A stretch of DNA of 20,272 nt, taken from positions 42,339 to 62,610 of the forward strand of contig JAMYWO010000241.1 of the NCBI GenBank assembly GCA_024220525.1, in the 5' to 3' direction. Both the position numbers and the translations under genes were made by a program. Positions 1-20,272 of this stretch are shown here, piece after piece. A model generated the notes under the pieces. It had not been told where the DNA came from. It worked only from the letters and a program-made list of their open reading frames with translations, and searched no databases. How positions within the stretch are numbered: position 1 is the first letter of the stretch; every line of letters begins with the position of its first letter. Source of the DNA: Cochliopodium minus (taxonomy: Eukaryota > Discosea > Himatismenida > Cochliopodiidae).

Positions 1-73
1 AAAATAAAAAATAAAAAATAAAAAATAAAAAATAAAAAATAAAAAATAAAAAATAAAAAATAAAAAATAAAAA
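1..73. repeat. (TAAAAAA)n heptamer microsatellite at left edge
   Basis: T residues recur every 7 bases at positions 5 to 68, each followed by six A, and the run ends at the G at 74. It lies within the edge intron of the Kelch-BTB gene. The same heptamer in the same orientation closes the window at 20211-20272. Confidence 0.97.
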
Positions 74-141
74 GTTTAAAATAATAAATAAAATAAAAAA
101 TAAAAATTATAGAAATACTAAAAAATAATTAATTTTTTTAC

Positions 142-3100
142 GACAGCGTGTATCGGTTGAAACTGCAAGATTCCAGAATAAATAAATATAAAGAAGGACA
201 ACCAAACATCAAACTCGATGTCAGAGATGTCCACAAGGAGAATGGTGTCGTGGAAGGAGTTTTTGGGGTTGAGTCCCACTTTGAACACTTCCACTGTCTC
301 TCCTTTCAATTTACATTCTTCTGCTAGTTCTGGGCATCTTGCATTTATTATTGGCAAATGTCCTGTTACATATTCTCCTCCTAATAAAATTTATTAAATA
401 AATAAAATAAATGAAATAAAAGAAAATAAAAATAATTAATAAAACAAATAAGAATAAAAATCAATAAAAATCAAAAAAATAAAAAAATAAAAAAAATATA
501 AAAGTAACAAATAAAATTAAAAAATAATAATAACAAAAATTTTTAAAATAAAAAATAATAAATAATAATAAAATAAAAAAATAAAAATAAAAGATTGGGC
601 ATTAAATTTGTTTTGAAAAATAAAAAAAAAAGAAATTTATTCAAAAAAATGTGAAAAAAATTAAACGTTAATTTTATTTTAAATTCAAAAATCAAAAAAC
701 TGAAAATATTTTTTAAATACTTTCCTAAAGTATTTACCTTTAGTTTGAAATGCAACGTCAACATAGTACTTGTCGTTTATGAGACATCTAAAGTCCATCA
801 TGTAGTCATCGAACTTGAGCGAGTGCAAGTCACATCTGTAGCCCTTTCTGTCCCACCCTCCGAAAATATACATTTTGTCTTTAACAGTTACACAAACATG
901 ACCTAAAATAAAAAATTTATTAATTTTGTTTATTTTTTTTATTTTTTATTTTTTTATTTTTTTATTTTATTTATTTTTTATATTTTTATTTTTTTATTTT
1001 TTTATTTTTTTATTTTTTATAATTTTTTTATTTTTATATTTTTATATTTTTTTTATTTTATTTTTTCTTCATTATTTTTTATTTTATTTTTTATTTTTTC
1101 TTATTTCTTTATTTTATTTTAATTTTAATTTTTTATTATTTATTTTTTTCATTTTTTTGAATTAATTTATAATTTTATTTGTTACTTTTTATTATTTTTT
1201 TATTTTTAAAAATTTTTTATTACCAAGTCTCGCACTAGGAACCTCTCCCATTGTTTCCATTTTGAACCATCGGTTAAGTGTGATGGAAAACTCATACAAA
1301 GAATTTGTTCTTTTCCCAGATTCCATCCCTCCTAAAAAAAATAACAAAATAACAAAATTTAATTAAAAAAAAATAATCAAATATATGAAAAAATAATTAA
1401 AAAAATTTAGAAAAAATAAAAAATAATAAATTAAAAGAAATATTTGAATTCAAAAATAAATTTGATATGAACAAAATTTTTAAAATAATGAATATAAAAA
1501 AATTTTAGATTTGAAAATAAAAAAATATTTCAAAAATAAATTTTTTAAAATAATAAATATATTTAAAATAAACAAAAATATATTTTTTTACCTTCAATCC
1601 CATAACCACCCCAAATTAGGATTGAATCTCTATATACAGCAGCCTCATGATCATACATAGAAGGAGGATAACCAATGACTTCCACGTTGGACCATCTGAA
1701 AGTGGACAAATCGAGTCTGAAGACGTCGCCGAAATACTTGGGTTCTTTGTTTCTCCCTCCTATCACATAAAGAAATGCTTCCATATTTTGGAACATTTCG
1801 TTTTGTTTGAATGGAATTGAATCACCTGGTTTTGTTTTGTATATTACACTTATATGTGAACCTTTTTTTTTAAAAAAAAAAATGATGAAAATTAAACTAA
1901 AATTTCACATTTAAATTAAGAAAAATATTTAAAGATATATTTTGATTAAAATTTTAAATTGTTTAAACTATTCATTAAACTATTCTTTAAAAATATTTAT
2001 AAATTGAAAATATTTTTTGGTCTTAATAAATGAGATATAAAAATTAAACTGTTAGATTATTTTGGAATCTTGATTAATAAATTGTTTCAAAAAAATTTTT
2101 GGATTTTTTAAACTAAAAAAATAATTTTCCATTAAAAGTTTGTTACAAAATGAAATAATATTATCAAAATTTTTTTTTAATAAAAATTGAACTGTTAGTC
2201 TTACTTCTTGGAGCTGGCAAAGAACCAGTGCAATCCATTTTCTTCCAAGACTTTGTTGCAACAGTGAAACAATGAACATCATTCAAACACTTCCCGTCCT
2301 CCGACTCGCCACCAAAAATATAGATCACTCCGTTGTAAATAGCAGATGTGTGTCTGTACCTTCCACAGGGTGTTTGAGAAGGATCAGACAAAGGTTCTAC
2401 TTTCGTCCATTTTCTATTTTTTAAAGTTTTAAAATAAATTTTCATCCAAATAAAAACAAATGCAAATACAAAGAATAAAATAAACTTTTAATGAAAATAA
2501 TAAAAAAAATTTCAAAAAAATAAAAACATTCAAAAAAAATGTTCTATTAAAATAAAAAATAGAAATAGAAAATGTTCTATTAAAATAAAAAATAGAAATA
2601 CATAATAATTATAACATTCACCTTTTAAATAAATGAAAAAAAAAAATTTTTTATAAATGTTCAATAGAAATGAAAAAATAAAGAATAAATAAAAAAAACC
2701 CAATATGCTTACCTGTTGTTTAAGTCGAATTCGTGAAGGTCGTTGTAGAACTTGTTCCCGTCTCTTCCTCCGAAAATGAACATAGAGGTTTCGTAGATCA
2801 CCAGTGTCTGTCCTGACCTTGATCCTGGTCTAAGTCCCTTTGTGTTCACTTTTTCCATCACATTTGTATCTAAGAAATGAAATTTTTTTATTTCGAGAAA
2901 ATAGTTTAAAACAAAGAATTGAATAGAAATTAAAACAGAAAATAAAATTTATCTTTCTAATAAGATTATGTTAATCAAGCAACTAAACTGCTTTAAAATG
3001 TTTTTTTTTGGAAATCCTTTAAATGATTTTAAAGATATTGTGGTCATTATTAAATACATGATTTTGAATATCGATTATTCTTGCTAGAATCATTTTATAT

Positions 3101-3681
3101 GATCAGATCTAGAAAATTTTATTCTATGAAATTTCATGAATCAAACTTTTTTAAAATTAACACAAATGAATGTTCCAATGATAATTGTGAGGAGAAAGTA
3201 TAAAAGTTTGAACATTCTTCAATAAATTGATTCAACAAATATATGTCAGGAATTAATGGTTATGTTTCAAATGAATAGAAAAATGGTTCTCTGTTGTGGA
3301 AAATAAATTATATATTCAGATATATTGCTTTAGAATGTCCAAATATGATACATAAACATAATAAATATTAACATATCTCTTTGATAAAAGAATATAATCG
3401 AATCTAATCTAATGTTTATAAACATAAAGAGAATATTTTGTTTTACCAATCGAATATTTATGAATAGTACTGCTCTTTTTGCTATCCTTTCTATCTCCTC
3501 CATATATAAAGATGAAATTGTTCTGATAAGCGACTGCCGAATGGCCATATCTCGCAGATATCTTGCCTTGGAAATCGATTTCGTTCCATTTGAAGGAATT
3601 GGGATCATAACCCTGAAATGGTTTGCCCTGAGTGATTTTTTTCTCATCTATCTTTAAATTTTTCTTGTTATTTTCGATCAT
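142..3681 (-). CDS. LZTR1-like Kelch-BTB protein, N-terminal part (3' end beyond left edge)
   Basis: Exons on the minus strand are 3681-3447, 2869-2713, 2413-2205, 1861-1592, 1331-1224, 902-738 and 380-142. They give 461 codons with compatible phases at every junction (1,2,1,1,1,1). Six Kelch blades are visible through their double-glycine motifs (YGGDRK, FGGRDG, FGGESE, IGGRNK, WGGYGI, FGGWDR), each with the expected downstream aromatic residues. A BTB fold begins near residue 370 (LINDKYYVDVAF, then INARCPE and IFIYSGIL). The last exon ends at a phase-0 donor, GTC|GTAAAA, and the intron runs off the window, so the C-terminus is missing here. Six Kelch blades followed by BTB is the LZTR1 architecture, in which the protein recruits Ras-type GTPases to CUL3. 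Function is inferred from architecture only. Introns of 260-577 nt are longer than in most neighbours and are packed with A/T homopolymers. The start ATG at 3681 is the first one ahead of blade 1. The likely continuation is the gene at 18422-20174. Confidence 0.9.
381..737. other. Kelch-BTB gene intron 6, low-complexity A/T
   Basis: This 357-nt intron separates the sixth Kelch blade from the main BTB exon. It is mostly A-rich on the plus strand, with a minor T-rich patch, and holds no supportable gene. The donor reads AAAG|GTAAAT and the acceptor TTATTAG|GAGG on the minus strand. Confidence 0.75.
903..1223. other. Kelch-BTB gene intron 5, T-rich on plus strand
   Basis: This 321-nt intron is almost pure A/T. 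On the plus strand it is a long run of short T blocks broken by single A, from about 926 to 1165. That run makes a spurious Phe/Leu/Ile-rich open frame. I see no gene, RNA or site in it. Confidence 0.8.
1862..2204. other. Kelch-BTB gene intron 3
   Basis: This 343-nt intron is A/T-rich with little structure. Its acceptor is unusual: on the minus strand a T run is followed by a run of about nine A directly before AG. The assignment rests on phase and on the Kelch sequence PRSSHISVIY that it restores across the junction. Nothing else is recognisable here. Confidence 0.75.
2536..2600. repeat. Tandem duplication, period 33 bp, two copies
   Basis: A 32-33 bp A/T-rich unit containing GTTCTATTAAAAT starts near 2536 and again near 2569, practically identical in both copies. 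It lies in intron 2 of the Kelch-BTB gene and looks like recent slippage or local duplication. Confidence 0.85.
2870..3446. other. Kelch-BTB gene intron 1, longest intron in the window
   Basis: This 577-nt intron lies between the first and second Kelch exons. Unlike the other introns, its part from about 2950 to 3420 is not simple A/T repeat but mixed sequence. It includes a 12-bp perfect palindrome, ATGAAATTTCAT, at 3126-3137. I find no conserved reading frame, tRNA or other RNA in it. An intronic regulatory element or a decayed exon would be compatible, but nothing shows either. Confidence 0.6.
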
Positions 3682-3972
3682 AATGCAAATAAAAAATCAA
3701 CCAAATTTTTTTTTTTATAGAAATTAAAAATCAACGATAATATCTAGATATAAGAGGTCAATGTAGTCTTTTTTAAAAAGTTAAATTCATTCTCCAAGGA
3801 TTTTATTCATTTTTTACCAATGGGTAATTCTTGGATAAAAACAGTTCATAAATCATTTTGGAATTCTGAATGCTCAGATCACGTTGTTATCCATCCAATG
3901 AATGATGTCAACTTTTGATTTCATGAAATCCTTTTGATAATTCGACAGAATTAAATATTAAAATATAAAAAA
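3682..3972. promoter_or_regulatory. Divergent intergenic region between Kelch-BTB and RCC1-like genes
   Basis: These 291 bp separate two gene starts that point away from each other, so both promoters should lie here. The half nearest the plus-strand gene (about 3780-3950) is less AT-extreme than other spacers. It contains a 14-bp perfect palindrome, GATTTCATGAAATC, at 3917-3930, about 45 bp before the ATG at 3973. A role for the palindrome is only a possibility. Confidence 0.5.
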
Positions 3973-4446
3973 ATGAACATTAATGAGGAAGAAAAATACA
4001 ATGGTGAAGATAGTATCATCAATATAGAAAGAATAGATACAATCATAAAATTTGAAAATGGTATCTACATCAAGAATGGAGTTAATTGGCAACCATTCAA
4101 AATGAAAAAAAAAATATTGGCAATAAGCAAATATATGCAGGTGATCTTCTTCTTATTGGATGATTTCTCCATCAAATACTTTGATGAGGGAAAGATGATG
4201 GAGATTTCAAGAGATAAATATCCCAATAACGATACAGTGATAAAAATGTTGGGGAAGGGAGCATTGACAAATAGAGGATACATCTATAAAATGGAAATGT
4301 AAAAAGTTAAAAAATTTATAAACTCTTTTCATTAAAATATAAAATATTAAATAAAAAATAAAAATAAAATTTAAAATAATATATAAAAGTATTTAATAAA
4401 AATAAAAATAAAAATAAAAATAAAAATAAAAATAAAAATAAAAATA

Positions 4447-4477
<31 letters not shown>

Positions 4478-5686
4478 AAAAATAAATGAATATAAAATAA
4501 ATATGATAAATTAAAAAATTACAATAAATAAATAAAAAATTACAATAAATAAATTATAAATTATAAAAAATTAATAATTAAAGTTAAAAAACAATTTAAA
4601 TTATTTCTCATTTGTTTTTAAAAACATTTTTTTAAACCTTTAGGACGGAAAACAAAAATAAATTTCCACTATCAAGATCTTTTCTCATGAGAACTTTTTC
4701 AAATGAAGGTATGAAGATGACAATTTACGATTTTGGAAATACTCCCGAGTTCATCGTGGAAATTGTGCAAAGTGATCTTTGTTCCTTGGCTCTAACCAAA
4801 GAAGGGAAGATCTATGATTTTAATGTAAATCAAATAATTGCCATAAAAAGAAAAGACAAAGGCATTTATCATTTTATAATTTTTATTTTTATTTTTTTAT
4901 TTATCATATTTATTTTATATTCATTTATTTTTTATTTTTTATTTTTTATTTTTTATTTGTTTTTCAATTTAACGTATTTTTTAAATAGGACTTAATCCAA
5001 GACAAATAAAATTTGATGGAGTGAAAAAAATATTTTCAAGTAAATTTTTTAAAAATAAAAAAAAAAAAAAAAAAAAAAAATTTGCTTCTTAAATTAAAAC
5101 CAATTTTATTTCAAAAAAAAAAGACAAATCTTACTTTTGGGTTATCACTTTCGACAACAAACTTTATCTAAAGAAAGCGATAGAGTTTTGTTCAAAGCAG
5201 AACTCTGCTTTGGTACCCTTCAAAGAAAACATAGAGAATGTATTCACCAATAAAGAGGAATACTGCTTTTTCGTCACGCAATCTTGTGATGGAGATTATG
5301 TAGTTTATGGGGAATCTCTTAACCAACATTGTTGCCAACTTTCTGACTTTAAAAATAAAGTTAAGAGTGTTCATCATTCAAATAATATTTTCATTTTTTT
5401 ATTGACTGAAGTTGTTAACAACTGCAATGTTTGGTATCTCGATTACTTCTTCAATTTGAAGGTTTTTGATTATCCCAAAGAGTTGACCGGTGGGATTGTG
5501 GGGTTTTTCGAGGAAAGATCTGATCACTCTTGGTCCAAAAACTCCCACTTTATGTTCCGAAAAAGTTTGCAAGATCTCGTTTTCACTTTTCTTTTGGTTA
5601 GGAGGAAGTGGAAGAAAGAGAATATTTTTGATGTTCCTTTTCCTATTTTTTCTATTATTATCAATTATGTAAATTTAGTTTATTAA
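3973..5686 (+). CDS. Diverged RCC1-like beta-propeller protein
   Basis: Exons 3973-4298, 4644-4861, 4989-5039 and 5124-5686 give 385 residues with matching phases (2,1,1). About seven evenly spaced blade-type strands can be seen (NGIYIKNG, FSIKYFDEG, RGYIYKMEM, GKIYDFN, NKLYLKK, DYVVYGE, NVWYLDY). Most RCC1 glycine signatures are lost, so this is a degenerate member. The C-terminus from Trp335 (WSKNSH, then VPFPIFSIIINYV) matches the C-terminal motif of the RCC1 gene at 6636-8382, which supports a paralogous relation. Intron 2 has a GC donor (AAAG|GCATTT). The only nearby GT would shift the frame into a stop. Intron 1 (345 nt) carries a TAAAAA repeat and intron 3 an A24 run. The product is probably a cytosolic protein-interaction scaffold; its partner is unknown. 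Confidence 0.75.
4397..4474. repeat. (TAAAAA)13 hexamer microsatellite
   Basis: T residues recur every six bases from 4397 to 4469, each followed by five A. The repeat lies in intron 1 (4299-4643) of the RCC1-like gene. The rest of that intron is A/T low complexity and includes a 21-bp tandem pair near 4513-4554. Confidence 0.95.
5057..5080. repeat. A24 homopolymer
   Basis: An uninterrupted run of 24 A lies in intron 3 of the RCC1-like gene, well before the acceptor at 5122-5123. Runs of this length are prone to length error in sequencing. Confidence 0.95.
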
Positions 5687-5694
5687 ACAATTTA

Positions 5695-5875
5695 TTAAAT
5701 TGAATGATACCTCCATAAAAGGAGTTGAACTCTCATGGAACATTGAAGTAAAGTTAGCGGGATTTGCGGATGATCTACTTTTGCTAAGTAGAACAAATGA
5801 AAACATTGAGAAATGTTTGGCAATCTCAAAAATTTACGAGGAAGCTTCCAATGCCAAACTCAACAACGATAAAAG
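5695..5875 (+). mobile_element. Non-LTR retrotransposon reverse-transcriptase fragment
   Basis: The frame read from about 5700 contains IKGVELSW, then VKLAGFADDLLLL, and ends in NAKLNNDKS. This is the block around the reverse-transcriptase catalytic motif [FY]xDD (FADD, two catalytic Asp) followed by the next conserved helix and the xLNxxKS turn typical of LINE-type elements. Only about 58 residues are present; the fingers, most of the palm, any endonuclease and the 3' end are all absent. It has no start codon of its own. It begins 9 bp after the stop of the RCC1-like gene in a different frame, and is cut off by the ambiguous base at 5876. This is either a dead remnant or the end of a sequenced piece. 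The family assignment rests on motif recognition only. Confidence 0.65.
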
Positions 5876-5876
5876 N
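5876..5876. other. Ambiguous base N at a junction of unrelated fragments
   Basis: This is the only N in the window. To its left, a plus-strand reverse-transcriptase fragment stops abruptly. To its right, a minus-strand protein fragment is cut in mid-domain. Neither frame continues sensibly across it. It may be a masked base call, a collapsed gap or a contig join. Confidence 0.9.
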
Positions 5877-6486
5877 TCTGATCCCCATTTCGATCATCAG
5901 ATTTGCAATATTTAAGGATATCAACTTGGATTAGAGATCTTTTCAGAGCCCCCTCACCAAATAGAAGCTTGTAAAAATGAAAGGATTTTTCAATTGGTAA
6001 ATTCTCCTTTTTAAAAGATTGATTGAGTATTTCCAACACTTTACTCTCATTTCCTTCCACATCTTTAATTTCTCTCAATAATCTCACTATCAATTTTAAC
6101 TTTATAAAAACATCTTTTTGTTCCGAAATTCAACTGAAAAGGTTCATCAGCTAAATTTGCCTCAATCAAAGAAAACTGTTTGAGAGAAATAGAGTTCTTC
6201 ACGTTATTCCTCACCCTCTTTTCATCATGGTTTTTCTTTATCTCTTTTTGAATCTCATCTGATATCTCCAAACTAAATTCATCTTTAAAAAAACATTGAA
6301 TGATTTCTTCTGTGAACAGTGCAACGTTCGGATGATTATTAATGATAGCCAATTGTCGATAGAATATTATCAATTCAGAGCAAAATGATTTTAAATCCCT
6401 TATAGAATCAAGATTTGATTTCCATCCATCATTCCATTCAATCTCAATTCCTTCATCATTGTATTAAATTGAAGTAAATTTTTCAT
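5877..6486 (-). pseudogene. Unidentified gene fragment with two frame breaks, truncated at N5876
   Basis: Read on the minus strand, the probable start is the ATG at 6486 (MKNLLQF). One base seems to be missing within about ten codons, after which a long frame runs through EWNDGWKSNLDSIRDLK and LADEPFQLNFGTK. Near 6115 one extra A in an A5 run would again account for the shift, and the frame continues as DVFIKLKLIVRLLRE to FGEGALKRSLIQVDIL before N5876. The sequence is helical, rich in Leu, Ile, Lys and Glu, with no family I recognise. The frame from about 6465 to 6115 contains no Met, which is why the upstream ATG with a frame break is preferred. Possible causes are a decaying gene, indel errors at a low-coverage contig end, or an unrecognised intron at the first break. 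Confidence 0.5.
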
Positions 6487-6635
6487 TTTAATAAATCATA
6501 AAAATTATATTAAAAGGAATTTGATGGTTTACAATTCAATTCGTGGTTTGTTTTGTTTAAAAAACTTTAAAATAATTTAAATAAATCTGACAAGATACAA
6601 ATTATTATTGATAAAATCATTTTTTCTATTTTATT

Positions 6636-8382
6636 TTAATTAAAAATTGAAATTAAATTGTTTTTAAGAACTCTAGTGAAATATTCTTTTCCACAATCCT
6701 CGAAGAAGTAGACAAATCCAATTATAATAAACGAAACTTGTTTGGGGAATTTGAGGAGTCTATTAAAAGTAGAAATCCTCTTCAAGTACAACACAAAAAG
6801 TTTTATCCTCTCCTTAAACTCTTTTGGGAAGTGATTGTGATCATTAGGAGACCATTTCTATTCAAAAAAAATAATAAATAAAAACAAATTTAATTTAATT
6901 TTTACGAATAAAAGAAGGTTTCCATTTTGAATTAACTTGATATCACTAAAATAAAGTTTGCTAGGAATATTTTTGTCACTAATATCACCTAATCCTAATT
7001 GATGCTGTTTCCCTCTTCCACAAACAAACATTTCCCTGTTTTCTTTCAAAAAAATGTTTTGAGAAAATAAAAAGTTTTATTATTAATTACTGTTGACAAA
7101 AATAGAATGTAGTTGTCCAGATAAAATAAAAAAAATGTTTTTAAGATTAATTTTCTTAAAGTAGGAATATTTATTGACATTATTCCCTAATCCAAGTTGT
7201 CCATATATATTATATCCACACCCATAAACTTCTCCTTCTCCTAACATTAAAAATAATAAAATAATAATTGTAATTTATTTGGTTTTTACTTGTTAAAATG
7301 AAAGCAGTCCCACCACCACAATGAACAGAAAAAATATTAGGAAAATCTTTTAATGTTTCTATTTTGAATACACTTTCGGTATCTCCGTAATATCCAAAAC
7401 GCTTCAAAATTGTATTTCCTTTTTCATCTCCTTTAATTTTTAATTTAAACTAACTAAAAATTTTTAATTTTTACTAGTCAAAATGAAAGAAAAATGATCT
7501 CCACAAGAAATTGAAAGAATTTTAGGATCAGTCAACAAAACAGTAGGATCATAAACAATACTTATTTTTTCATTATGACCACATTTTCCATAACCATTAG
7601 ATCCCATCACTAAAACTTCCCCACTTTCTTTTAATTTATTAAAAAAAAAATTCAAAAAATATTATTTTTCTGTTTTACTTTTTAAAAACAATATATGATC
7701 ATATCCACAAGAAAAAGAAATGATATCATCTATGTTTAATTCGGTAAAACCATTAAGTTTATATTCAAATCTTCTTCTTCTGCTTGGAATTGTAATATGT
7801 CCACTCCAATATATTTTCAAATCATCTTATAATTAATAAAAAAAATTAATAGATTTCTAAATCCTAAAATATCACCTTTTTGAAGAATTGTAAAATTATT
7901 TGAAGCACAAAGTTGCTTTACATTAGAAGTTATAAATGTAAATGTTGATAAATTGGCTTGATTATCCTTTATTCCCAATTGTCTATCTTTATTTAATCCT
8001 AAAAAAAAAAATGAAATAAGAATTGAAATTATAAATTTAATTATTAAAAACTACCACATCCATACAAATTTCCATTCTCTAAAAGAAATTTAAAATAAAT
8101 TTTTTATTTCTAAAAAAATTTACTTTCCAAATAAAAAGAATGGTCATATCCCAAAACAATAGACTTTATTTTAGGATTATTCATTATTTTTGTTGGTGTT
8201 TGAACATAAACACTTTCACTTCCAATTCCACATTGTCCATATTTATTACTTCCAAATGAATAAATATCCCCATTTTCTGAAGTAAATAATATTAATAATT
8301 ATTCTGATATGTAGTATCATTTATTTTTACCATTCATGAAGATATTGTGATTTGAAAAACATGAAGAAGAATTTTGTCTCAT
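6636..8382 (-). CDS. Seven-blade RCC1-repeat propeller protein
   Basis: Ten exons: 8382-8331, 8276-8124, 8078-8055, 7998-7876, 7825-7679, 7627-7475, 7430-7290, 7240-7091, 7042-6906 and 6857-6636. They encode 433 residues; introns are 44-56 nt, eight in phase 1 and the last in phase 0. Seven RCC1 blades are readable: GDIYSFGSNKYGQCGIG, GNLYGCGLNKDRQLGI, LKIYWSG, GEVLVMGSNGYGKCG, a divergent one at GNTILKRFGYYGD, GEVYGCGYNIYGQLGLG and EMFVCGRGKQHQLGLG. Introns fall at the equivalent point just before each blade's first strand, so exons of about 50 codons match blades. The C-terminal tail from Trp362 (WSPNDHNHF, then FPKQVSFIII) has a counterpart in the gene at 3973. RCC1 propellers can act as Ran exchange factors or as scaffolds. 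Without a nuclear-localisation tail or a resemblance to true RCC1, a scaffold role is more likely. Confidence 0.88.
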
Positions 8383-8899
8383 TCTAATAATAAAAAGCAA
8401 AAATGATTTTCAAACAATTATAAATATCCTAAATATTCGAAAATAATTTCAACATAAATGATTATTTAGATCTCATTAATATATAATTATAGTATCTAAT
8501 TTGAGATTAAAAAAAATATTCAAAATATTAGACAACGAAATATTTCGCCAAATCAATTTTTAATGAAGTAAATCAACAATCTTTTTAAATGAGGTAAATT
8601 ATATTCATTGGATCTATAATCAAGAATAAATAATTTTAACATTATGGTGTTATTATACATATCAATCTTTTATATGTTTACCAATATATTTCTGTATTTA
8701 AAATACTCTTTTTTTTATGAAAGAAATTTTTACCAAAATATGAAGAGAAGAATCAATATTTTTTTTTTTTTTTTTTCAATAAAAAGGATATCTAAGAACC
8801 ATGGATAATATTGAAATAAATGGTTATTTTATTTTTTTGATCTGAGGATAATAAAAAAGGAAAATATTCATTAATTTATTAATTAATTAATTAATAAAA
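8383..8899. promoter_or_regulatory. Divergent intergenic region between RCC1 and PA-7TM genes
   Basis: These 517 bp lie between two outward-pointing starts. The region holds a T16-T17 run near 8760-8776 and an (AATT)n stretch at about 8871-8896, immediately before the ATG at 8900. No reading frame with a recognisable product and no RNA gene was found. Both promoters presumably lie here, but I cannot point to an element. Confidence 0.5.
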
Positions 8900-10747
8900 A
8901 TGTTAGCCAAATTTATTTCTTTATTTCTTCTATCTGCCTTGATTTTAACATCAATTGATGCTCTTAAAATTATAAATCAAAATGGAACAATTAGCAATTT
9001 TGATACTCCTGCATTTATTGGAAACAAAATCAACATTGTAAATGGACAAATAATAAGCTATTTGGGTAAATAGACAAAAAATTAAATAATGGAAAAATCA
9101 ACAAAATTTAATTTCATTTATTTAATCTCCCTACTTTTATTTCATTTTAATTTGTGTTAGGTTTATTGGGATTAACTCAAAAAGATATGCAATCATGTAA
9201 AGTAGCTAATCCAAATTCCATATTGAATGGATCAATTGCTATTGTTGCGCCATTTGGAGGTAAAGATTAAGATTAATTTATTGAACGAATGTTATTTAAC
9301 GACTTTATATGCGCAGGATGTTCTATGGAAAGACATATTGAAGTTGCACAGTAAAATTTAATCTAAATATTAAAAATTAAAAGTTTTCATTTATTTTTTT
9401 ATTAAAGGAATGCTGGAGCGATTGCAGTTATTATAATTGTTGATCAAATATGGAGGTATATTTTTATAAAGATATAATTAATTTATGGTTTCAATATCTT
9501 TTTATAATTCAAGATTATGCAATATGGTTGATGTATCGAGCAATAAATTCAATAATAAAATACCTGCAATTTGTATTTCAGTGGGAGATATGGAGAAATT
9601 GACAAGGATAATAATTATCAATGGTAAAATAATAATTATATTCAATCCAAATCCATGTATTATAAACAATCATATGAAATGAGAATATCCATTATGCAAT
9701 TTTTTTTTAAATAGGATCACAACAACCACCACAACCAACAATAGCAATGTTCGAAGCAAATCCAAATACATATCTGACAATGAATCATCATGCAATGAAT
9801 TTTGTGACGATTTTTTTTTTTATAAATTTTGTGGCAGTTGGTGTTTGGGCATTGTTGAAACTGATATATTTTTGGAAAATTGAGGGGTTTATGTTGACAA
9901 CTTCAAAGTTTCTAATTGGATTGGTTCTGTACAGTAAAATAAAATATATTTGAAAAATTAATTATTTTTGAAATCATTTCTTAGTGGGAATTGTTGATTC
10001 ACTCGTTACAATTGATCTTCTTGGATGGAGATTGTGGTACGCTAATGTCCAACAATTTGGTAAAAATAAATTTTGATTTTTGATTTGTCAAAATTTACTT
10101 TTTAAAAGATACAACATATATTGTCTTCTTTGCTTCTGCTCCTCTTTATGGTTTTTTAATTTTTGGAGCGGACATCGCCAATGTTTTGGCAAAAATTTCT
10201 GTCAAAAAAAAAATTGCTACAAAGAATCATCTATTCCATTCTTTCTCTATATCTCATTTTTTATACAACTGTCAACATAGTCAATGCATCTTACGGTTAC
10301 ACTTGGAATTTGAGTGAACAAATAGGGAACACCGTAATTTGGGTTGTTTTTTCAATCATTGTATCTTGTGGATTGTTTTACAGCTTTGCATCTTTTTTTC
10401 TTATCAAAAAATTGTTTTCTGTTTCCAAAAATAGATTTCAAGGGAAAAAAAAATATCGTGTCCTGACTGTTTGTATAATAATCTGTTTCTTTGCTACGTT
10501 TATTGGAGCAATTACTTTTGCAATCAGCTCCAAAAAAGATGTTCGTAATAATCCTAAATCTTATTTGGGAGTCACAATTGTTCTTGTTGTTGTTCAACTC
10601 ATGTTTTGTTATGCTGTTTTGATCTCCTACAAACCTAATTTGAAAAAATCTCCAAGTTTTTCTTCAAATAGATCAAAGGATAGCAAGAAATTTGTCAACC
10701 TTGACTCTACCCACGAAATCAAATCTTCTGACACTAAATATTTATAA
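8900..10747 (+). CDS. PA-domain seven-transmembrane protein, broken by a +1 frame shift
   Basis: Exons 8900-9065, 9161-9259, 9317-9350, 9408-9455, 9514-9623, 9715-9933, 9985-10059 and 10109-10747 form a frame consistent in phase up to residue 285. A signal peptide (MLAKFISLFLLSALILTSIDA) is followed by a protease-associated-type luminal domain (IAIVAPFGGCSMERHIEVAQ, then NAGAIAVIIIVD and KIPAICIS), a Pro/Gln linker and a first membrane helix at about 181-205. Six more hydrophobic segments follow, giving seven in all. In the last exon the frame changes at an A10 run (10204-10213). Dropping one A gives about 462 residues; reading straight through ends at a TGA after about 320 residues and loses four helices. 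PA plus seven helices suggests a secretory-pathway or surface receptor-like protein of unknown ligand. The resemblance of the membrane part to plant THH1/TOM1 proteins is an impression only. Confidence 0.75.
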
Positions 10748-10820
10748 TTTTTTTCAAATTTTAAAATCGAAATTTCTTTTTTAACTTTTTAAATACAAAA
10801 AATTATATAAAAAAAAAAAA

Positions 10821-12904
10821 ATGAATATTGGAATTCTATCTATAATCTTTTTATTTTTCTTGATTTTTTCAAATTCATCCATCATTATCATCAAAGATTG
10901 CGATTCTTTGCAAAAATTGCCGACCAATTCAAAAAATATCTTCAAATTACAAAATAATATAGATTGCCAATCAAAAACTTTTTTGCCTATAGGAAACATC
11001 ACTAATCCTTTCATTGGTACGTTGGATGGAGCATATTATTCCATTTTGAATATAAATATTGCAAACAATGATACAATAAATACTGGTAAATATAAAATAA
11101 TATCAAATATCATATCATTTGGAACTAAAATTTAGTTCATAATAAGAATAAACATCATTTAAGAACCACAAATTCAAATTCATAGATATAAATGAATATA
11201 ACATTTTGATATTAATGTATAATATTCAAATTCCATTTATTTTGAAAGGAATAATTCAAAAATGTTCGAATATAGTTTATTCTAATCTATTTACATTCAA
11301 AAGGAATCTTTGCTGTAACATATGAATCCACAATAAGAAATCTGTATCTTAACAACATCAAAATAACAGCCAACAATGGATACGAAAGCACAGGAGGGCT
11401 TGTGGGACTTGCAAACCTAACAAACATTGTAAACATAAGAATGAGCACAACAAACTCTGACGGAGAAAACCACATAATAGGAGGACACAAAGTAGGAGGT
11501 ATCGTGGGAAGCGCATATCAAAGTGTTGTAGAAGGATGTACCGTCGAAAATACTCACGTAGAAGGAACAGGAAACACTTCTCTTAATTACAATAGTGGGG
11601 GAGTAGTAGGATTAGCTTATGGAGAAAGTAAAAAAGTTTTATCAATTTAAAATAAATTTTTAAAATTATTCATTTTAATTAGAATTAATTTAATCTTTTT
11701 TCATAAATCATTATAATTTGATTTTTTTTTTCAATAATTCTAGATCCTACCACTATTGTGACTGATTGTCACAATTTGGGGAAGAATAATGATGATTTGG
11801 GAATTATTGTAGAAGGAACATCTGCAGTTGGGGGTGTATTGGGAGGATGCATAAGATGTATTTTCAAAGTAAAATAAAAAATAATCAAAATCAAATTAAT
11901 TTATAAAAACTAAAAAAGAAATCTGGTACCGTTAAAGGAACAATAATTTCAAATGATTTAACAGGAGGAGTTTTAGGATTGGCAGATTCTCCATTGTATT
12001 TGAGTGAACTTTATACAAGACCACAAGTTACAGTCAAAAGGTTGAAATAAAATTAGTTTTCCCTCATTATTTTTTCTTTTTTTCCAATTTTAATTATTTT
12101 TAATAAATTCTCTAGTGATTCGTATACAGGTGGTCTTGTAGGTTATGCCTATGTTGATTCCCCTATAGCAGTTTGGTTTGACAACATGTACTCTACAAGT
12201 AAAGTAATGGGTAAAAATGAAATAGGTGGTCTTTTTGGGTTTTTGTGGGCAACCACTGGAAGTATCATCACGATAAGAAATTCTTACTCAAGATCTATAA
12301 TTGGTTAAAAAAAATTATAAAAATAAAAATGTTAAAAAATAAAAATTAATTTGATAAAAAGAAAATCCTAGTGGTAATCTCAATTTTGTTGGGAATATTG
12401 TTGGACAATTAAGCACAAAAGAATGGGAATCTACTGATAATGGAATTTATTCTTTCCTCAATGTATTGTACGATGATTCAAACAAAATAGAAGCAGCAGG
12501 TAAAAATGTTTTAACTTTATCTTTGAAGAAAGGAAATTATTCAAAAAAATTAATTTTTCTTTAAAAAAGGTAAGAATACAAGTGTAACTTTAGAATATGG
12601 ATCCTTGTTGGGATTATCTTGTCCAATGCTCTACGAAAAAGCCAATAACGACTTTAACCAAAAGCTCATTTGGGGAGGAGACAGACTTAGAGTAGAATAC
12701 AACTATGTGACTGGTAACAGAGGTGTTTCTTGTGTTAATTCTGCTCGTAGAGTTGCTTTGATAGTGGGAATCGCCTTACTCTTGGTGGTTATCATGATAG
12801 GAAGTGTTTTGTTTTTTAAATATGCTCTTCCAAAGTTCAAAAAGTCCAACACCGAATCAAATCTTCACAATATTAATTCTATGCCTTTTTCTGATGATGA
12901 TTAA
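10821..12904 (+). CDS. GLUG-repeat type I membrane protein
   Basis: Exons 10821-11085, 11304-11627, 11744-11868, 11919-12040, 12116-12303, 12362-12499 and 12570-12904 give 498 residues with matching phases. An N-terminal signal peptide precedes a head typical of GLUG proteins (FKLQNNIDC, then FLPIGNITNPFIGTLDG). At least six glycine-rich turns follow: TGGLVGLA, VGGIVGSA, SGGVVGLA, VGGVLGG, TGGVLGLA, TGGLVGYA and the weaker IGGLFGFL. Each is followed by a short strand with Cys or Asn-rich text such as VEGCTVENTHVEG. This pattern suggests a right-handed beta-helix or solenoid outside the cell. A membrane helix near 449-472 (VALIVGIALLLVVIMIG) and a short acidic tail (SDDD) close the protein. 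GLUG repeats are best known from bacterial surface proteins and adhesins. An adhesive or recognition role here is inference. It starts only 73 bp after the PA-7TM gene on the same strand. Confidence 0.85.
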
Positions 12905-13134
12905 TCTATTTCAATCAAAATTAAATATTTTTTTTTTTTGAATTTTGGCTCCATTATATTTATTTTACAGAACGGAAATTTCCGACAAAGATAAAATATT
13001 CATATTATCAAAAAGGTATGTCAATTTGTTTCTTAATTTCCCCAATATTTTCTTTTATTATTCATCCCAAAGAGGAAGATTATAAAAAAAAAGATAAAAA
13101 AAATAGCTTTCTGTTTTTTTTGTATTTGGAAAAA
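12905..13134. promoter_or_regulatory. Intergenic region with GGAAATTTCC palindrome
   Basis: This 230-bp spacer lies between the GLUG and F-box genes. A 12-bp perfect palindrome, CGGAAATTTCCG, sits at 12973-12984. It follows a T-rich tract ending in CAG, so a 5'-UTR intron acceptor at 12968-12970 is conceivable. An in-frame upstream ATG at 13018 would add a 39-residue hydrophobic-basic leader to the F-box protein. I prefer the ATG at 13135, which has the A-run context seen at the other starts and sits just before the F-box. Confidence 0.4.
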
Positions 13135-14488
13135 ATGAAAGTAAATGAAACTGTCATTCCCAAGAGAGTTTGGATATACATGCTTTCCTTCCTTGATTCA
13201 AAATCTTTAAGGTAAATTTATCACCAAAGAGAAAATATATGTTGATCATATTTTTAATTGAAGGTATATACATCATAATGATGAATATTCAAGAATAAAA
13301 AGAGAAATAAGATCGTTTTTAAACCACTTTTAAATCTGAATAATTAAATAAAAATCTTCGTTATTTTTTTCACTGAATTAAATTTAAATTTAGAACATCA
13401 ATGATGGTTTCAAAATCATTTCATCAATGTGGATCTGACAAATCCCTGTATCATTTGACAAAACTAGAAGGAATAGCATCGATAAGAAGTCTATTGAATT
13501 TAAAGATATTTGCAATAATAAGTTGGCTGTATTCATTCGATCTTAAAAACAAAAAAGATTTGGAGATAATTATATTAATCTTAAAGAAAAAAGGATTGGA
13601 GATGCTTTATCGTGTATCACTTCTATACATCTTTTGGCTCAAATTTCTCAACATGATATTCCTCATGGTAATTGTGTACGTCATGTTTGGTGTTGAACAT
13701 TTCATCGAAAACAGTCGTTTTTTGTCTATATTATTGACTGTACTCTATTTCTCAACTTTCATATGTTATTTTTTTGGGCTTGATACAATGTAAAACTAAA
13801 AAAAAATAATTAATTTTATTTAAACTAAAAAAAAATAATTAATTTTATTTAAACAACAAAAAATACAAAAGTGCTGTAATTTTAACATGGTAAAAATAAG
13901 AAAATTTAACTTTTCTTACTTTTTTGTTTATATTCAAATTTTATTTATTAGGCCAGGTTATTTTCTACTGGAAGCCTACATTTTAGAAAACACCCTCAAA
14001 AATATCTTTAAAGGAAAAGAACTCATTTTGTGCTGTTTACTTTACATTATCATAGAAATATGTTTCATTTCCGTCTGCTCAAAGTTTGTCACTGTTTGGA
14101 ACATGATCAACAAACACTACTACACTTCTTCGTTCTACAAAAAATATAATTCTAGATTGAATTTTAACTTGGATTACCTCCACTACCCAATACTTACATC
14201 AGCTAATTTTTCTAAAACAGGTAAAATAAATTTTTTTTTTTGATTTTTCAATAACATTGATTTCAATTATTTTTTTTAGCTTTGATTATTTATGGTATAG
14301 GAAATTTTTCAAATGGTTTTGTTCAAGCTTTTTTGTTTATTTCTACCTTTTTCGCTTCTCCTCTTTATTTTTATTTGTCTCGAGACTATCTTATCAAGTT
14401 TTCTGAGCAATCTGCCAACGTAGGAATTTTTGCTTATACTTTTATTCTCACCATTTTTGTCAAAAATTGTGTTTCTTTTGTAATATAA
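13135..14488 (+). CDS. F-box protein with C-terminal multi-pass membrane region
   Basis: Exons 13135-13211, 13394-13789, 13952-14220 and 14280-14488 give 316 residues with matching phases (2,2,1). Residues 7-50 form an F-box: VIPKRVWIYMLSFLDSKSL, then a phase-2 intron, then SMMVSKSFHQCGSDKSLYHL, matching the family pattern of LP...ILSFLD...L...V.KSF...... W/Y..L. After residue 95 come about five hydrophobic segments (near 100-125, 134-155, 182-201, 245-280 and 293-316), some long enough for more than one pass. F-box proteins normally present substrates to SKP1-CUL1 ligases through WD40 or LRR domains; a membrane-embedded partner is uncommon. I infer an SCF adaptor anchored in an internal membrane. 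The substrate is unknown. The second intron contains a 29-bp tandem duplication. Confidence 0.75.
13794..13851. repeat. 29-bp perfect tandem duplication
   Basis: Two identical 29-bp units (AAACT, nine A, then TAATTAATTTTATTT) lie back to back in intron 2 of the F-box gene, immediately after the donor. Perfect identity suggests a recent event or an assembly duplication. Confidence 0.9.
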
Positions 14489-14691
14489 CATCATTAAAAC
14501 TTTAGAAATAATTATTACTTTTATTTGTGAAACAAATTAACAGATCTAGTTAATCCACAAAACATTTTTTTTTTTGTGTCAAATTATTTCTTGTTTGTTT
14601 CTTTTCCCAACAAGATGTGAATCTATTTTTTAAAAAAAGAAAAATTTTTATTGAAAAGAAAATTATAATAATAAAAAAAAAATTGAAGGGG

Positions 14692-16134
14692 ATGGAAGAT
14701 ATCAAACAGCTCTATGTCGAAACACCATTGATAGAATCAAATGAAATGAAGAAATATATAACCAAAGGAAGAACATTTTTGAAATTAGAGAACACCCAGC
14801 CAAGTGGATCGTTCAAACATAGAGGCATAAATTATTAAAATTAGAAAAAAAAAAAGAAATAGAATCTTCCAAAAAAAATAATAATCAAAAAAATGAGCCA
14901 TTATGAATATACAAACGATATATCTAAAAATAAACAAGAATTAATTAAAATCTATTCAAATAGGAATGTCACATATTGTATTGAAGAATGTGAAAAATGG
15001 TGCAAAGGGATTTATATCAAGCTCAGGTGGAAATGCAGGACATGGTATAAAAAAATAAAAAAAATTTATTTTACATGAGTTTAATTCAATTTATAAATTT
15101 AAAATTATATTTAAGCTGTTGCTATGTCTTGCCAAGTAATGAAAGTACCATGTACTATAGTAGTTCCTGAATCAACACCGGTTTTCATGAGGTAAAACAA
15201 AAAAAAATCAAAAAAAAAAAACATAAAAAAAAAATATTTTAGGGAAATGATTGGAAAAACAGGATCTCAAATATTGGTTCATGGAGCAAGTTGGTTTGAC
15301 GCAGATAAACTAGCTAGACAAAAAGCACAAGGTAAAAAACAAAAAAAAAGAATTTAATTTTAAAAAATGAAATTTATTTTTCATTGAAACTTTGAAAATG
15401 AATTAAAAGAGTTGGGACTTACATATGTTCACCCTTTTGATGACAAAGATGTATGGGATGGAAACGGAACAATGATTGATGAAATTAAAAGGCAATTAAA
15501 CGGTAAATTTTATTTATAATATCAAATTTTATTGTAAATTATTGTTTTATTATTTTTATTTTTATTGTAATATTAGGTCAAAAACCAAAAGTTATCGTTC
15601 TTTCTGTTGGTGGAGGAGGTCTTTTGATTGGAGTTTACCACGCTCTCCAAAGAATAGGATGGGGAGATGTGAAAGTGGTGGCTGTAGAGACCAAGGGAGC
15701 TCACTCTTTCTACCAATCCGTGAAAGAAGACAAATTAGTTGACATTTTGGAAATTTCTTCTATTGCAAAAACATTGGGTAAAAAACAAAATTAATTAAAA
15801 ATAAAATATTATTGTTTTTGAATTTTTAATTTGATTGAAAGGTGCTAGAATTGTTGCAGAAGAAGCTTTTAATATTGGAAGAAACAACAAAAATGTTATC
15901 CCTTATTTGGTCGAAGACAAAGATACTGTTATTTCTGTGCAAAAGTTTCTTGATGAACACAGATTCTTGGTGGAACCATCTTGTGGTGCCTCTTTGAGCA
16001 TTGCTTACGAACACAGCGATGTTATCTCAAATCTGGGGTTGACTGAAGAAGATATCGTGGTGTTCATAGTATGTGGAGGATCAATAATAAACACATCTCA
16101 ATTAGATATCTTCAAAAAACAATTTAATCTTTGA
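14692..16134 (+). CDS. L-serine/L-threonine dehydratase, PLP-dependent
   Basis: Exons 14692-14824, 14964-15044, 15116-15191, 15243-15331, 15410-15502, 15577-15777 and 15842-16134 give 321 residues, close to the roughly 328 of animal serine dehydratase. Family motifs are all present. LKLENTQPSGSFKHRG carries the PLP Schiff-base lysine (Lys42), SSGGNAGHA (63-72) holds the cofactor ring, and SVGGGGLL (Gly169-172) binds the phosphate. VEPSCGASL and VCGGS lie near the C-terminus. The enzyme deaminates serine to pyruvate and threonine to 2-oxobutyrate in the cytosol. There is no regulatory ACT domain, so this is the catabolic SDS type rather than biosynthetic IlvA. Intron 1 uses a GC donor (AGAG|GCATAA) and contains no GT at all. 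The upstream ATG-less frame from 14617 is not included. The stop is TGA. Confidence 0.93.
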
Positions 16135-16247
16135 AATTTTTATCTTTAAAAATAAATTATATTATAAAAAAATAATTAAAAATAAATAAATTAAATAAAG
16201 ATTATTTTAATAAAAAATTTGGATTTTAAGAAAAAAAAAGCTGGAGT

Positions 16248-17235
16248 TTAGTTATATTTGACAGGAGGCATATAAATGGAACCGTCGCAACTTCCACCTT
16301 GAGAAGGGCAATCAATAGGGCTCAAGTTAGGATCGGTACAAAGGTAGACTCTGTGCAACATAGTCTTTCCGTCGTTCTTTTCACAATCAATCCAAGGTTT
16401 GTTACCATAACCAGCAGTGACGGCAGCGATGATGTTGTCGAGGGTGTAACCTTGGCTGCTTGATGGGACGATGTTTGCGTTTGCCAAGTAGGTGAGGATA
16501 GGGTATTGGGCGTGCAATTTGATTGCCAAGTTGAAGAATGCGAATTCACTAGTCAAAACGTTCAACATGCATGTTCCTTAATTGAAAAAAAATGGTTTTT
16601 AATTTAATTTATTGAATTTTTTATATGAGATAAATCACAATGAAATAGTGATGGAATTTAATATTCTCTCATAATTAATTATCCGTTTTTATATTATTTT
16701 TTTTTTTATTTTTTATACCATGTTTTTCCCATTCGTGACTCCAAAAATCAGTATCATTAGTGTTGAATTTAATATCATACCAAATCTAATTTTGATATAT
16801 AAAGTGTTTTTTTGAATATTAATTTATAAAGGTAAAATTCTTGTTTACAGTATTCAATTGATTTCTGATGGTGGAGATATTATTTGCATTGAATGGATAA
16901 TTGCTGTTGCAATCACTTGGATAAGATCCATCAAAATTAGTAGGCCACATACCATGATATTGGAATCTAAAATTCAAAAGGTCCAAATATAATTGGGTTT
17001 TGATTAAAAAGAAAAATTTTTTTTACGTATTGACAAATGATGGAAGATTAGATGTTTGAACGGTTCTTTATTTACGTGAATGAAAAATATTTTAAAATAT
17101 TATTTTGATACAGTAAATTAGTTTAATATATATTTACCCGGGCCATCTTTGGACGAGCAAGAGATATTGCCATGAGGTGCTTTGGCACATGACCATGCAA
17201 AATAACAAGGAAAATACAACTAATAATAATTTCAT
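16248..17235 (-). CDS. Secreted RNase T2 family ribonuclease
   Basis: Exons 17235-17138, 17065-17027, 16966-16849, 16785-16719 and 16576-16248 encode 216 residues with matching phases (2,2,0,1). A signal peptide (MKLLLVVFSLLFCMVMC) is followed by the family start YLLLVQRWP. Active-site block CAS I is FQYHGMWP with His50. CAS II is FWSHEWEKHGTC with His102, Glu103 and His107. The C-terminal part has the usual Cys-containing blocks (IDCEK, VYLCTD, IDCPSQGGSCDG). All three catalytic histidines and the glutamate are present, so the enzyme should be active. RNase T2 enzymes act in the secretory or endolysosomal compartment or outside the cell, cleaving single-stranded RNA via 2',3'-cyclic phosphates, here presumably for nutrition or digestion of prey. 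Exon 2 is only 39 nt. The gene converges on the dehydratase, with 113 bp between the stops. Confidence 0.93.
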
Positions 17236-17603
17236 TTTTTTTTTTTTTTTAAAATTTTTATTTGATTTGATGATTTGATGAATTGAAGATAAAAACATCC
17301 TTTTCATAGTTTTAAATTTGATTTCGGAACATCTGTTTTTATTTTTGGTCCTTTTTACAATTATTTAAGATTAGTGGATATAAATTTCAATTAAAAAAAA
17401 GAATTACAATTAAACCATACCAATTGATTTGTGAATCTTATTTCTCAAAATTGAAATCGTTAAATCTAACAATATTATGATGATATTAAATTATTTTTTC
17501 AATATTCTTATAAATCAATTGATGTGAAATTAATCTTATTCTTGATACTAATATCTACCCATATAATCTTTGAAAAAATCTTAATTGCCTAAAAATAAAA
17601 AAA
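17236..17603. promoter_or_regulatory. Divergent intergenic region between RNase T2 and EF-hand genes
   Basis: This 368-bp spacer lies between two outward-pointing starts. It carries a T run directly in front of the RNase start and otherwise mixed A/T-rich sequence. I see no gene, RNA or clear motif, but both promoters should be here. Confidence 0.5.
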
Positions 17604-18246
17604 ATGAAGAATATTATTAAAAATATTGTCAAAAATAAAACCTTATTAAGAAAATCATTTGCAACTTTCAAATCACCAATACATAAATCATCATTGATAA
17701 AAACCTCATTGTTCTTATCAATCCCCACAATCTATTATCTATCTGAATATAAGCCCATAAATGAATATGTAGGAAATGTTTTTGAATGTAAAGAAGATAT
17801 CAATGAAATAACAAATGTATATGAAAGATTATCGAAAGAATATGAAGAGATATTTGATACCAAAGAAATTATAACAAAGGAAGAATTTGTCAACAAAATT
17901 TCCAAAAAATTTAATCTGACAAAGAAAGAAGCAAGACAATTATTTCAAAAATTGGATAAAAATAATCAAAAGAAAATCACAAAAGAAGAATATATAATTG
18001 GGATAGCAGAAATAGGTAAAAATTAAAAAAAAAAATTAAATTAAAAATAAATAAATAAAAATTTTTTACTTAAAAGAGGGAATCAAAATAAGCAAGAAAG
18101 AAATTTTCTCTTTCAAACAACAGTGCACAAGATGTGAGACCGAGAGGGGAGAGGAAGACATGGTTTGTACTGCGTGTGAGGGACAGATGTTCTTCTACAG
18201 AAACGACAAAAGAGATCTCAAAATTATTTATACATTAAAAAAATAA
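17604..18246 (+). CDS. EF-hand protein with two CxxC pairs and mitochondrial-type N-terminus
   Basis: Exons 17604-18015 and 18077-18246 give 193 residues (phase 1). The first 36 residues contain many Lys, Arg, Ser and Thr and no acidic residue, resembling a mitochondrial or mitochondrion-related-organelle presequence. A short hydrophobic stretch follows (TSLFLSIPTIYYL). Residues 118-129 form an EF-hand loop (DKNNQKKITKEE) with Asp at position 1, Asn at 3 and Glu at 12, but Lys replaces the usual Gly at position 6. An upstream helix-loop region (TKEEFVNKISKKF) may be a degenerate partner. The C-terminus has Cys154-x2-Cys157 and Cys168-x2-Cys171, a zinc-ribbon-like arrangement. I do not recognise the family. 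Calcium and zinc binding are predictions from the motifs, and the organelle targeting is inference. Confidence 0.75.
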
Positions 18247-18421
18247 TCAATTAAAAAATGATATAATAAAAAAGAAAATTAAAAAAAAAAGTTATCTAAA
18301 AGTTTTTGATTGGTGAAGGAAAAATTTAAAAAATTGTACTAATACGCCTTGTATTTTCAAATTTTTAATAAAATCTCTTTCATCAAAAAAAAAAAAAAAA
18401 AGTTGAAAAAATTTCTGGTTT

Positions 18422-18629
18422 TTAATTATTTGTGCAAAAAGAAGCATGTGTTTGTATTATCTCTATCAAAATATCTTTGTGGAGCTTTTTGAGGGCCATT
18501 TGTTTGCAGACTGCATGGAAGTTTTTGGCAACGTAGTGTACCGCAACTTTTCTCAGTTCCAACAAACTGCATTGATCTGCAATTTCCAAGATGGTCAAAA
18601 CCTATGTAAAATAAAAAATAAAAAATAAA

Positions 18630-18660
<31 letters not shown>

Positions 18661-20174
18661 TAAAAATAGAAATAAAAAAATATTAAAAAATAAAAATAGA
18701 AATAAAAAAATAAAAATAAAATAATTAAAATATAAAAAGAATAAAAACAAAAATTTTTAATACATTGTTGTGATTCAATAACCCATTAGAGTTATCGTCA
18801 CTGTCTATAACATATTGTCCGCAGATGTTTTTCAGAGGCTGGACCAAGAACCTGTCTGCGCATCTGAGAAGGTCCAAAGCGTGAGTCAAAGAAGGAATAT
18901 TTACATAATCAGAATAAAGATATTGCAAAAAAGACTTGAAAATTTCAGTATCTAAAAAAAAATTTTAAAATAAAAATTAATTTTTATTTTTTTTTTATTT
19001 TTATTTTTTATTTATTTTATTAGATTTTTTTTATTTTTAAAATTTTATTTTACCTATGTCATTTATTTCCATTACTTTAGTTCTTCCTTCTTTCATGCTG
19101 TTGCTGAAACAGAGAGCTAGAGTGTTGGAACGACTAAGGACGCAACAATGACAAAAAAATTCAGTTCCGTTAATTATAATCTTTACATCCGAAAATGATT
19201 CATTATTTACACATTTAAGTAAATCTTTTCTCAACTAAAAAAAATAAAGTGTAAAAAAAAAATTAGTGTAAAAAATATTTTTAAATGAATTAATGTTTAA
19301 AAAAATATTTTTCAATTCAAAACTAAGCCAAAATAATTAATTTGATAAAAAAAGTAAATTGAACAAGAAATTATTAAACATTTTTTTAAAAAAAAAATAA
19401 TATAAATAAAAAAATAAAATAAAAATATAATAAAAAATAAAATAATAAAAAAATTAAAAAATCAAAAATTTTTTTTAGAAAAATGTCAACAAAATCAAAA
19501 TATAAATAAATAAAAAAATATCATTCAAAAAAAAATTTTTACTTTTTGTGTCGAATTTTTTCTTTCTTTGTCATCAGATTTAATCAACAAAATCTCTTCA
19601 TTGTTATTTACGTTGGGAGAACCCAAATTAGTATTTATATTGTTGTTAGAGTTGCTCATGTTCGTTTTTGTTTTGAGCCTCAGAAGCTCTATGAGCAAGT
19701 CGTTGGGCAAAGAGGAGATTTGTTGCGTCATTGTTACTTCGTCGAAGTATTGGCTGATGAGATCTAGACAGAAAATTTTTATTTCGGAAATTTCTTTTTG
19801 GTGACATGATTTCAAAACTGATAAAACGTTCTCTTTTGTGATACTAATAAAAAAAAATAATAATTAAAAAATAATCTGTAAAAATAAAAAGTAAATAATC
19901 TAAAAAAATATGGAAAATTTTTTAAAAATAATTTCTATTAAATTAAAAAATAAATTAAATAATTTAAAAAATAAAAAAATATTCAAAGCATCATATTTTT
20001 TAAAATAATTTCCATTAAATTAAAAAATAAATTAAATAATTTAAAAATAAAAATAAAAAAATAAATAAAATATAAAAAATAAAAATCATTTTTCTTTCAC
20101 CTTGCTCTTATATTGGACAAAGAGAATGTCATAAATTTTTCTAGTTTGTATTTTTGTCCAACAAGGAAAATGTC
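18422..20174 (-). CDS. LZTR1-like BACK-BTB-BACK protein, C-terminal part (5' end beyond right edge)
   Basis: Exons on the minus strand are 20174-20101, 19843-19543, 19234-19054, 18951-18764 and 18601-18422, with phases 2,0,1,0 and 307 residues to the TAA stop. The first exon enters in phase 0 with FLVGQKYKLEKFMTFSLSNI, the segment that follows a BTB fold. A BACK domain continues (ITKENVLSVLK ... EIKIFCLDLISQYF) and ends in an Asn-rich linker. A second BTB follows (ESFSDVKIIINGTEFFCHCC, then FLQYLYSDYV and HALDLLRCADRF), then a second BACK (NNVLTILEIADQCSLLELRKV, then YVAKNF). BTB binds CUL3, and paired BTB-BACK modules are the C-terminal half of LZTR1. The gene has no N-terminus here, and the gene at 142-3681 has no C-terminus. 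Strand, phase and domain order fit them as one gene. Intron lengths (102-308 nt) also resemble that gene. Confidence 0.88.
18606..18720. repeat. (TAAAAA)n-type low-complexity repeat in last intron of BTB gene
   Basis: Imperfect five- to seven-base units of T followed by A runs, with occasional G (TAGAAA), fill most of the 162-nt intron 18602-18763. No other feature is visible there. Confidence 0.85.
19235..19542. other. BTB gene intron between BACK1 and BTB2 exons
   Basis: This 308-nt A/T-only intron separates the Asn-rich linker exon from the second BTB exon. On the minus strand it starts at GTAAAAATT and ends at TTTTTTTTAG|TTGAG. I see nothing else in it. Confidence 0.75.
19919..20062. repeat. 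Imperfect tandem duplication of about 60 bp, period 77
   Basis: A segment containing ATTAAATTAAAAAATAAATT occurs at about 19919-19980 and again at 19996-20062, with only a few differences (TTTCTATT versus TTTCCATT). Both copies are in the intron 19844-20100 of the BTB gene. Confidence 0.8.
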
Positions 20175-20210
20175 CTTTAATTAAAAAATAAATTGAAATA
20201 AAATTAAAAA

Positions 20211-20272
20211 TAAAAAATAAAAAATAAAAAATAAAAAATAAAAAATAAAAAATAAAAAATAAAAAATAAAAA
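20211..20272. repeat. (TAAAAAA)n heptamer microsatellite at right edge
   Basis: T residues recur every 7 bases from 20211 to 20267, each followed by six A where the sequence continues. The repeat lies in the intron upstream of the first BTB-gene exon. It is the same unit in the same orientation as at 1-73. Confidence 0.97.

Follow-up and report, generated by a model that had tools for sequence, protein, structure and literature searches.

The two edges of the window, meaning here the whole 20,272-base stretch analysed, which is the end (C241:42339-62610) of the 62,610-base scaffold C241 of Cochliopodium minus, very probably hold the two halves of one LZTR1-like gene, as judged by sequence analysis. 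The split appears to result (with a probability of about 0.6) from an assembly break at a microsatellite and a wrong, repeat-linked scaffold order on an ordinary linear chromosome. Circular DNA is not needed to account for the split gene, an ordinary error of assembly order being its likeliest cause. The predicted gene, whose exon boundaries were drawn by hand on the basis of open frames and splice signals, has the following parts:

142-3681, minus strand: 5' half of the LZTR1-like gene, 7 exons, 461 residues, with Kelch repeats and the first part of the first BTB domain (BTB1)
3681-3447, 2869-2713, 2413-2205 and 1861-1592, minus strand: exons 1-4 of the left half
1331-1224, 902-738 and 380-142, minus strand: exons 5-7 of the left half
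18422-20174, minus strand: 3' half of the LZTR1-like gene, 5 exons, 307 residues, with the end of BTB1, the first BACK domain (BACK1), BTB2 and BACK2
20174-20101, 19843-19543, 19234-19054, 18951-18764 and 18601-18422 (stop included), minus strand: exons of the right half

The left half runs to a phase-0 donor beginning at 141 and the right half starts after a phase-0 acceptor ending at 20175; joined in phase 0, they give an open frame of 768 residues (461 + 307) in the probable order Kelch-BTB-BACK-BTB-BACK. The joined intron measures 239 nt and the other ten introns 102-577 nt, all of them GT-AG. The rebuilt exon model agrees with a preliminary description of the window in the coordinates and phases of the edge genes, the residue counts and the length of the joined intron, and reproduces the range that it gave for the other introns.

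The N-terminus is a Kelch propeller related to that of LZTR1 (Pfam Beta-prop_ATRN-LZTR1, PF24981, 116 and 61.3 bits in two parts against a cut-off of 50; top PDB match 9mey, the LZTR1 Kelch domain, E 2.1e-49), and at the other end of the protein BTB2 (59.6 bits) and BACK2 (36.8 bits) both exceed their Pfam cut-offs. BTB1 becomes visible only on joining the halves (15.5 bits, cut-off 20.5), whereas BACK1 gains nothing from joining (16.7 bits joined, 19.2 bits in the right half alone, cut-off 20.9). Aligned with BTB2-BACK2 of the same protein, the joined BTB1-BACK1 scores 39.7 bits, versus 21.6 bits for the left half alone and 13.1 bits for the right half, and the alignment passes the junction without a gap between the junction residues (HAV/DIF, the slash marking the junction, versus HAL-DLL), with flanking gaps of one residue just before HAV and of seven residues soon after. 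Because the alignment continues through the junction and the joined score is above that of either half, the domain evidence supports the view that the window edges cut an LZTR1-like gene at truly complementary points; by itself, the junction alignment fits one gene and two paralogues cut in the same intron equally.

LZTR1 has N-terminal Kelch repeats followed by two BTB-BACK units, an architecture that the C. minus protein probably shares, and the equivalent motifs of BTB1 and BTB2 lie 227 residues apart in the C. minus protein, compared with 222 residues between the starts of the two BTB-Back units of human LZTR1 (429 and 651, PMC8154269). Unlike LZTR1, the C. minus protein has a BTB1 and a BACK1 that fall under the Pfam cut-offs, and its gene is found split in two, with one piece at either end of the window. 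Human LZTR1 is an adaptor of the Cullin-3 ubiquitin ligase (PMC8154269), and a Cullin-3 adaptor role for the C. minus protein is putative.

Complementary halves at the two edges would also arise from a pair of diverged LZTR1-like paralogues in tandem, each interrupted at the same intron: the 3' half of the left one would have been lost in a gap of 4.3 kb beside the window, which has room for the 1.9 kb that is missing, and the 5' half of the right one would lie past the end of the scaffold. If that intron carried a microsatellite in both copies, both would be cut alike, and every scaffold link would be kept. Against this, the assembly (598 sequences, 44.65 Mb) yielded neither of the missing halves: a protein search with hand-joined drafts of 446 (left) and 309 (right) residues, the final halves having 461 and 307, detected no close second copy of either. 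The best match of the left half elsewhere is a Kelch stretch in scaffold C4 (77.9 bits, 28% identity), and the relatives of the right half are distant (best 21 bits, in C34). The C34 locus (about 100911-103750, L021), which of the BTB relatives detected in the assembly is the nearest, has Kelch repeats and a single BTB domain within the 3,156 bases read; this also counts against paralogues, although an N lies in that stretch. Since two paralogues would require that the assembly lack both missing halves, one gene is preferred and paralogy is quite unlikely. The single gene proposed in the preliminary description is thus well supported by the complementary halves, by the domain rebuilt across the join and by the lack of any other close copy in the search.

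To the left of the window lie 4,296 N (C241:38043-42338), preceded by 38,042 bases of other sequence (C241:1-38042, contig A), which contain one single N, at 36461; these are the only two N features in C241:1-42338. The N run is more likely a scaffold gap than anything else, given the single Ns and N runs seen at other repeats. Contig A was considered as the holder of the missing 3' half and ruled out, as tblastn with the halves and the joined protein detected no close copy of either half there (best E 0.19); a blastn comparison of the window with contig A gave five matches only, of 22-56 bases. The end of contig A (C241:36462-38042, L068) matches C152:50236-51466 (L069) at 80% identity for about 1.25 kb, right to the final base of the contig; the left edge of the gap may therefore also sit in a duplicated stretch.

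Both edges of the window consist of the same microsatellite:

1-73, no strand: (TAAAAAA)n in the split intron, at the start of the contig that follows the 4,296 N
20206-20272, no strand: (TAAAAAA)n, closing both the contig and scaffold C241

The arrays are exact and, as the preliminary description had noted, in the same orientation, with a longest exact suffix-prefix overlap of 66 nt. A telomere pair is rejected on account of the shared orientation, in agreement with that description, and of the N run that adjoins the left edge. In this assembly (TAAAAAA)6 can be placed 1,797 times forward and 1,840 times in reverse, overlaps included. Twenty scaffolds at even intervals of scaffold number were surveyed at both ends, 2 of the 40 ends reading N and 38 being readable. 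Exact short-unit arrays of at least 40 nt (43-77 nt) occupy the last 100 bases of 12 of the 38 readable ends, compared with 4 of 578 interior 100-base pieces, all taken from C241, so that such arrays are enriched at scaffold ends over interior DNA as represented by this one scaffold. At least three exact TAAAAAA units were present at 7/38 ends, five in the orientation of the window and two reversed; the reversed ones are the two ends of C495, so that this scaffold, alone among the 18 that could be read at both ends, shows matching repeats in matching orientation at its two ends. No single shared gene was recognised at the ends of C495, C465 and C315 in translations viewed by eye, which counts neither for nor against one gene at both ends. 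Because (TAAAAAA)n is abundant, arrays are common at scaffold ends and C495 is alike at both of its ends, matching microsatellite edges are weak evidence in this assembly.

The window is itself interrupted by a single N, which the preliminary description did not mention, with a different dispersed repeat on either side:

5720-5875, plus strand: reverse-transcriptase fragment of a dispersed retroelement (RVT_1, 20.7 bits, under the cut-off of 29.6)
5876, no strand: single N, presumed contig join between W1 (1-5875) and W2 (5877-20272) and suspected wrong scaffold join
5877-6492, minus strand: dispersed repeat with an open reading frame, about 89-95% identical to pieces in C7, C111, C345, C449 and C103

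The left fragment is 97% identical to C316:19247-19402, and the match stops at 5875, where the window reaches the N; the matches to C7, C111 and C449 start at 5877 (5872 in another comparison). Among eight repeat matches, one is the window itself and the other seven each lie on one side of the N only. A merely ambiguous base is unlikely at 5876, as homology stops on both sides and the two sides match different loci; we infer that the N is a join of two contigs. In all six other matching scaffolds an N lies within about 250 nt of the repeat, and in three of them (C7, C345 and C103) homology stops exactly at the N; for comparison, the whole of C241:1-42338 has just two N features. Because these repeats accompany breaks in this assembly, links that span them are the least reliable. 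A single N is used by some scaffolders to mark an overlap of estimated length, a convention that carries no weight here and was not found in passages of PMC6733440 and PMC8110574. In C316 (15500-23500, L042) the reverse-transcriptase fragment runs on, at 3653-4131 of that piece, beyond the point at which the window copy stops at the N. The C7 copy of the right-hand repeat (C7:46000-54000, L040, 2892-3653) has an open reading frame of up to 254 codons, and two window pieces of the frame in 5877-6492 gave no Pfam match.

The whole arrangement can be accounted for as follows. The assembler would have broken one LZTR1-like gene on a linear chromosome at the (TAAAAAA)n array in its seventh intron, leaving W2, which ends in the 3' half, and W1, which begins with the 5' half. 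The scaffolder would then have misordered the two: W1 would have been linked by its right end to the left end of W2, across the single N between the dispersed-repeat fragments, and the W1-W2 pair would have been placed behind the 4.3-kb gap. The true order across the gene would be W2 followed by W1, in which the LZTR1-like gene is whole on a linear chromosome. The window is apparently like a scaffold mis-join in a draft assembly in having repeats at contig ends, an N between them and a gene order that does not agree on the two sides of the join; for scale, a paper on one plant genome reports 166 mis-joins detected with long reads (PMC8110574). The gene halves, the microsatellite edges, the N, the repeats flanking it and the N run are directly observed; that the fault lies in the N join rather than in the one-gene reading we infer, and the joins were judged from the assembled sequence.

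Three observations count against the order W2-W1. It requires that the link from contig A across the 4,296 N to W1 be wrong too. RCC1-like genes, recognised by eye, lie near the N on both contigs, a mild hint that W1 and W2 are true neighbours. An arrangement in C103 (27000-34000, L044) also speaks for the N join at 5876: two segments, related respectively to the right-hand repeat (2998-3255, plus strand) and to the reverse-transcriptase fragment (5296-5393, minus strand), are separated by 2.0 kb and face each other, as their counterparts in the window do. The first is followed by an N run and the second preceded by a single N, so that both inner edges carry Ns. Should the two repeats be arms of one element, the N join could be correct; the alternatives would then be a misplaced end of W2, two genes, or a segment that closes on itself. 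In the same piece of C103 a 509-base stretch occurs twice with 90% identity (1888-2388 and 4785-5293), and the interval 1888-5393 is possibly one composite retroelement.

Misplacement of the end of W2 would keep one gene and put the wrong link within W2: its last 2.7-4.1 kb, which include the 3' half and might start at about 16.2 or 17.3-17.6 kb and run to 20,272, would belong in the 4,296-N gap left of W1, the order contig A, gap, W1, N, W2 being otherwise right. The 3' half plus its flank fits the length of the gap, a single wrong link suffices, both the N join and the contig A link are kept, and intergenic spacers are seen by eye near 16.2 and 17.3-17.6 kb. Neither an N nor a long dispersed repeat marks a break there, however, and a search with 16200-18960, in which 40 of 678 candidates were scored, yielded only short matches and the AT microsatellite near 18604-18763. 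This explanation is unlikely.

A real nuclear 20-kb circle, a minichromosome or a tandem (head-to-tail) array, in which the N join and the microsatellite join are both true, is decidedly improbable, and so, in equal measure, is the corollary that ordinary intron-bearing genes are carried aboard with the LZTR1-like gene lying across the closing point. With both joins taken at face value the map does close, the halves of one gene standing at the two ends as would be expected of extrachromosomal circular DNA or a minichromosome, and the C103 arrangement mildly supports the N join. The reading nevertheless requires that the N join between repeats be right and that the link to contig A be wrong or mark a junction, and it draws on edge microsatellites that are routine in this assembly. 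A complete circle or array would have no other flanks, but the window is an incomplete scaffold tail beside an N run, although a wrong scaffold link would weaken this point; nor is the window uninterrupted, the single N at 5876 lying between two dispersed-repeat fragments. Segments 10000-12900 and 16200-18960 gave short matches only and no second copy, which is weak evidence against an array, as identical copies would collapse.

The preliminary description had called the sequence circular or circularly permuted. Permutation holds trivially, in that 5877-20272 followed by 1-5875 is the window permuted at the N; a circular molecule is improbable. The scaffold runs 42 kb further left across the gap, contigs are bridged by N and breaks at microsatellites are routine, all of which count against a circle; an assembly cause was among the explanations that the description listed. 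A circle, if true, would make the segment a nuclear minicircle or array of an unusual, gene-bearing kind. Under the contig-order error preferred here, the window serves instead as a warning that broken and misordered contigs in an AT-rich draft genome can yield an end-split gene with matching microsatellites, and the correction to check is the contig order at C241 together with one 768-residue gene model.

The window also contains other genes. Two exons of the RCC1-like gene in W1 gave no Pfam match; RCC1-like repeats, named by eye, lie on either side of the N (3955-5686, plus strand, and 6639-7661, minus strand) and occur in two other scaffolds (L043, 2094-2687; L097, 726-1082), possibly as an expanded family. 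Further to the right are ordinary genes, with outer limits set by eye, for a PLP-dependent enzyme (14554-16131, plus strand, 75.5 bits), an RNase T2 (16251-17364, minus strand, 72.8 bits) and an EF-hand-like protein (17604-18243, plus strand, 27.7 bits, under the cut-off).
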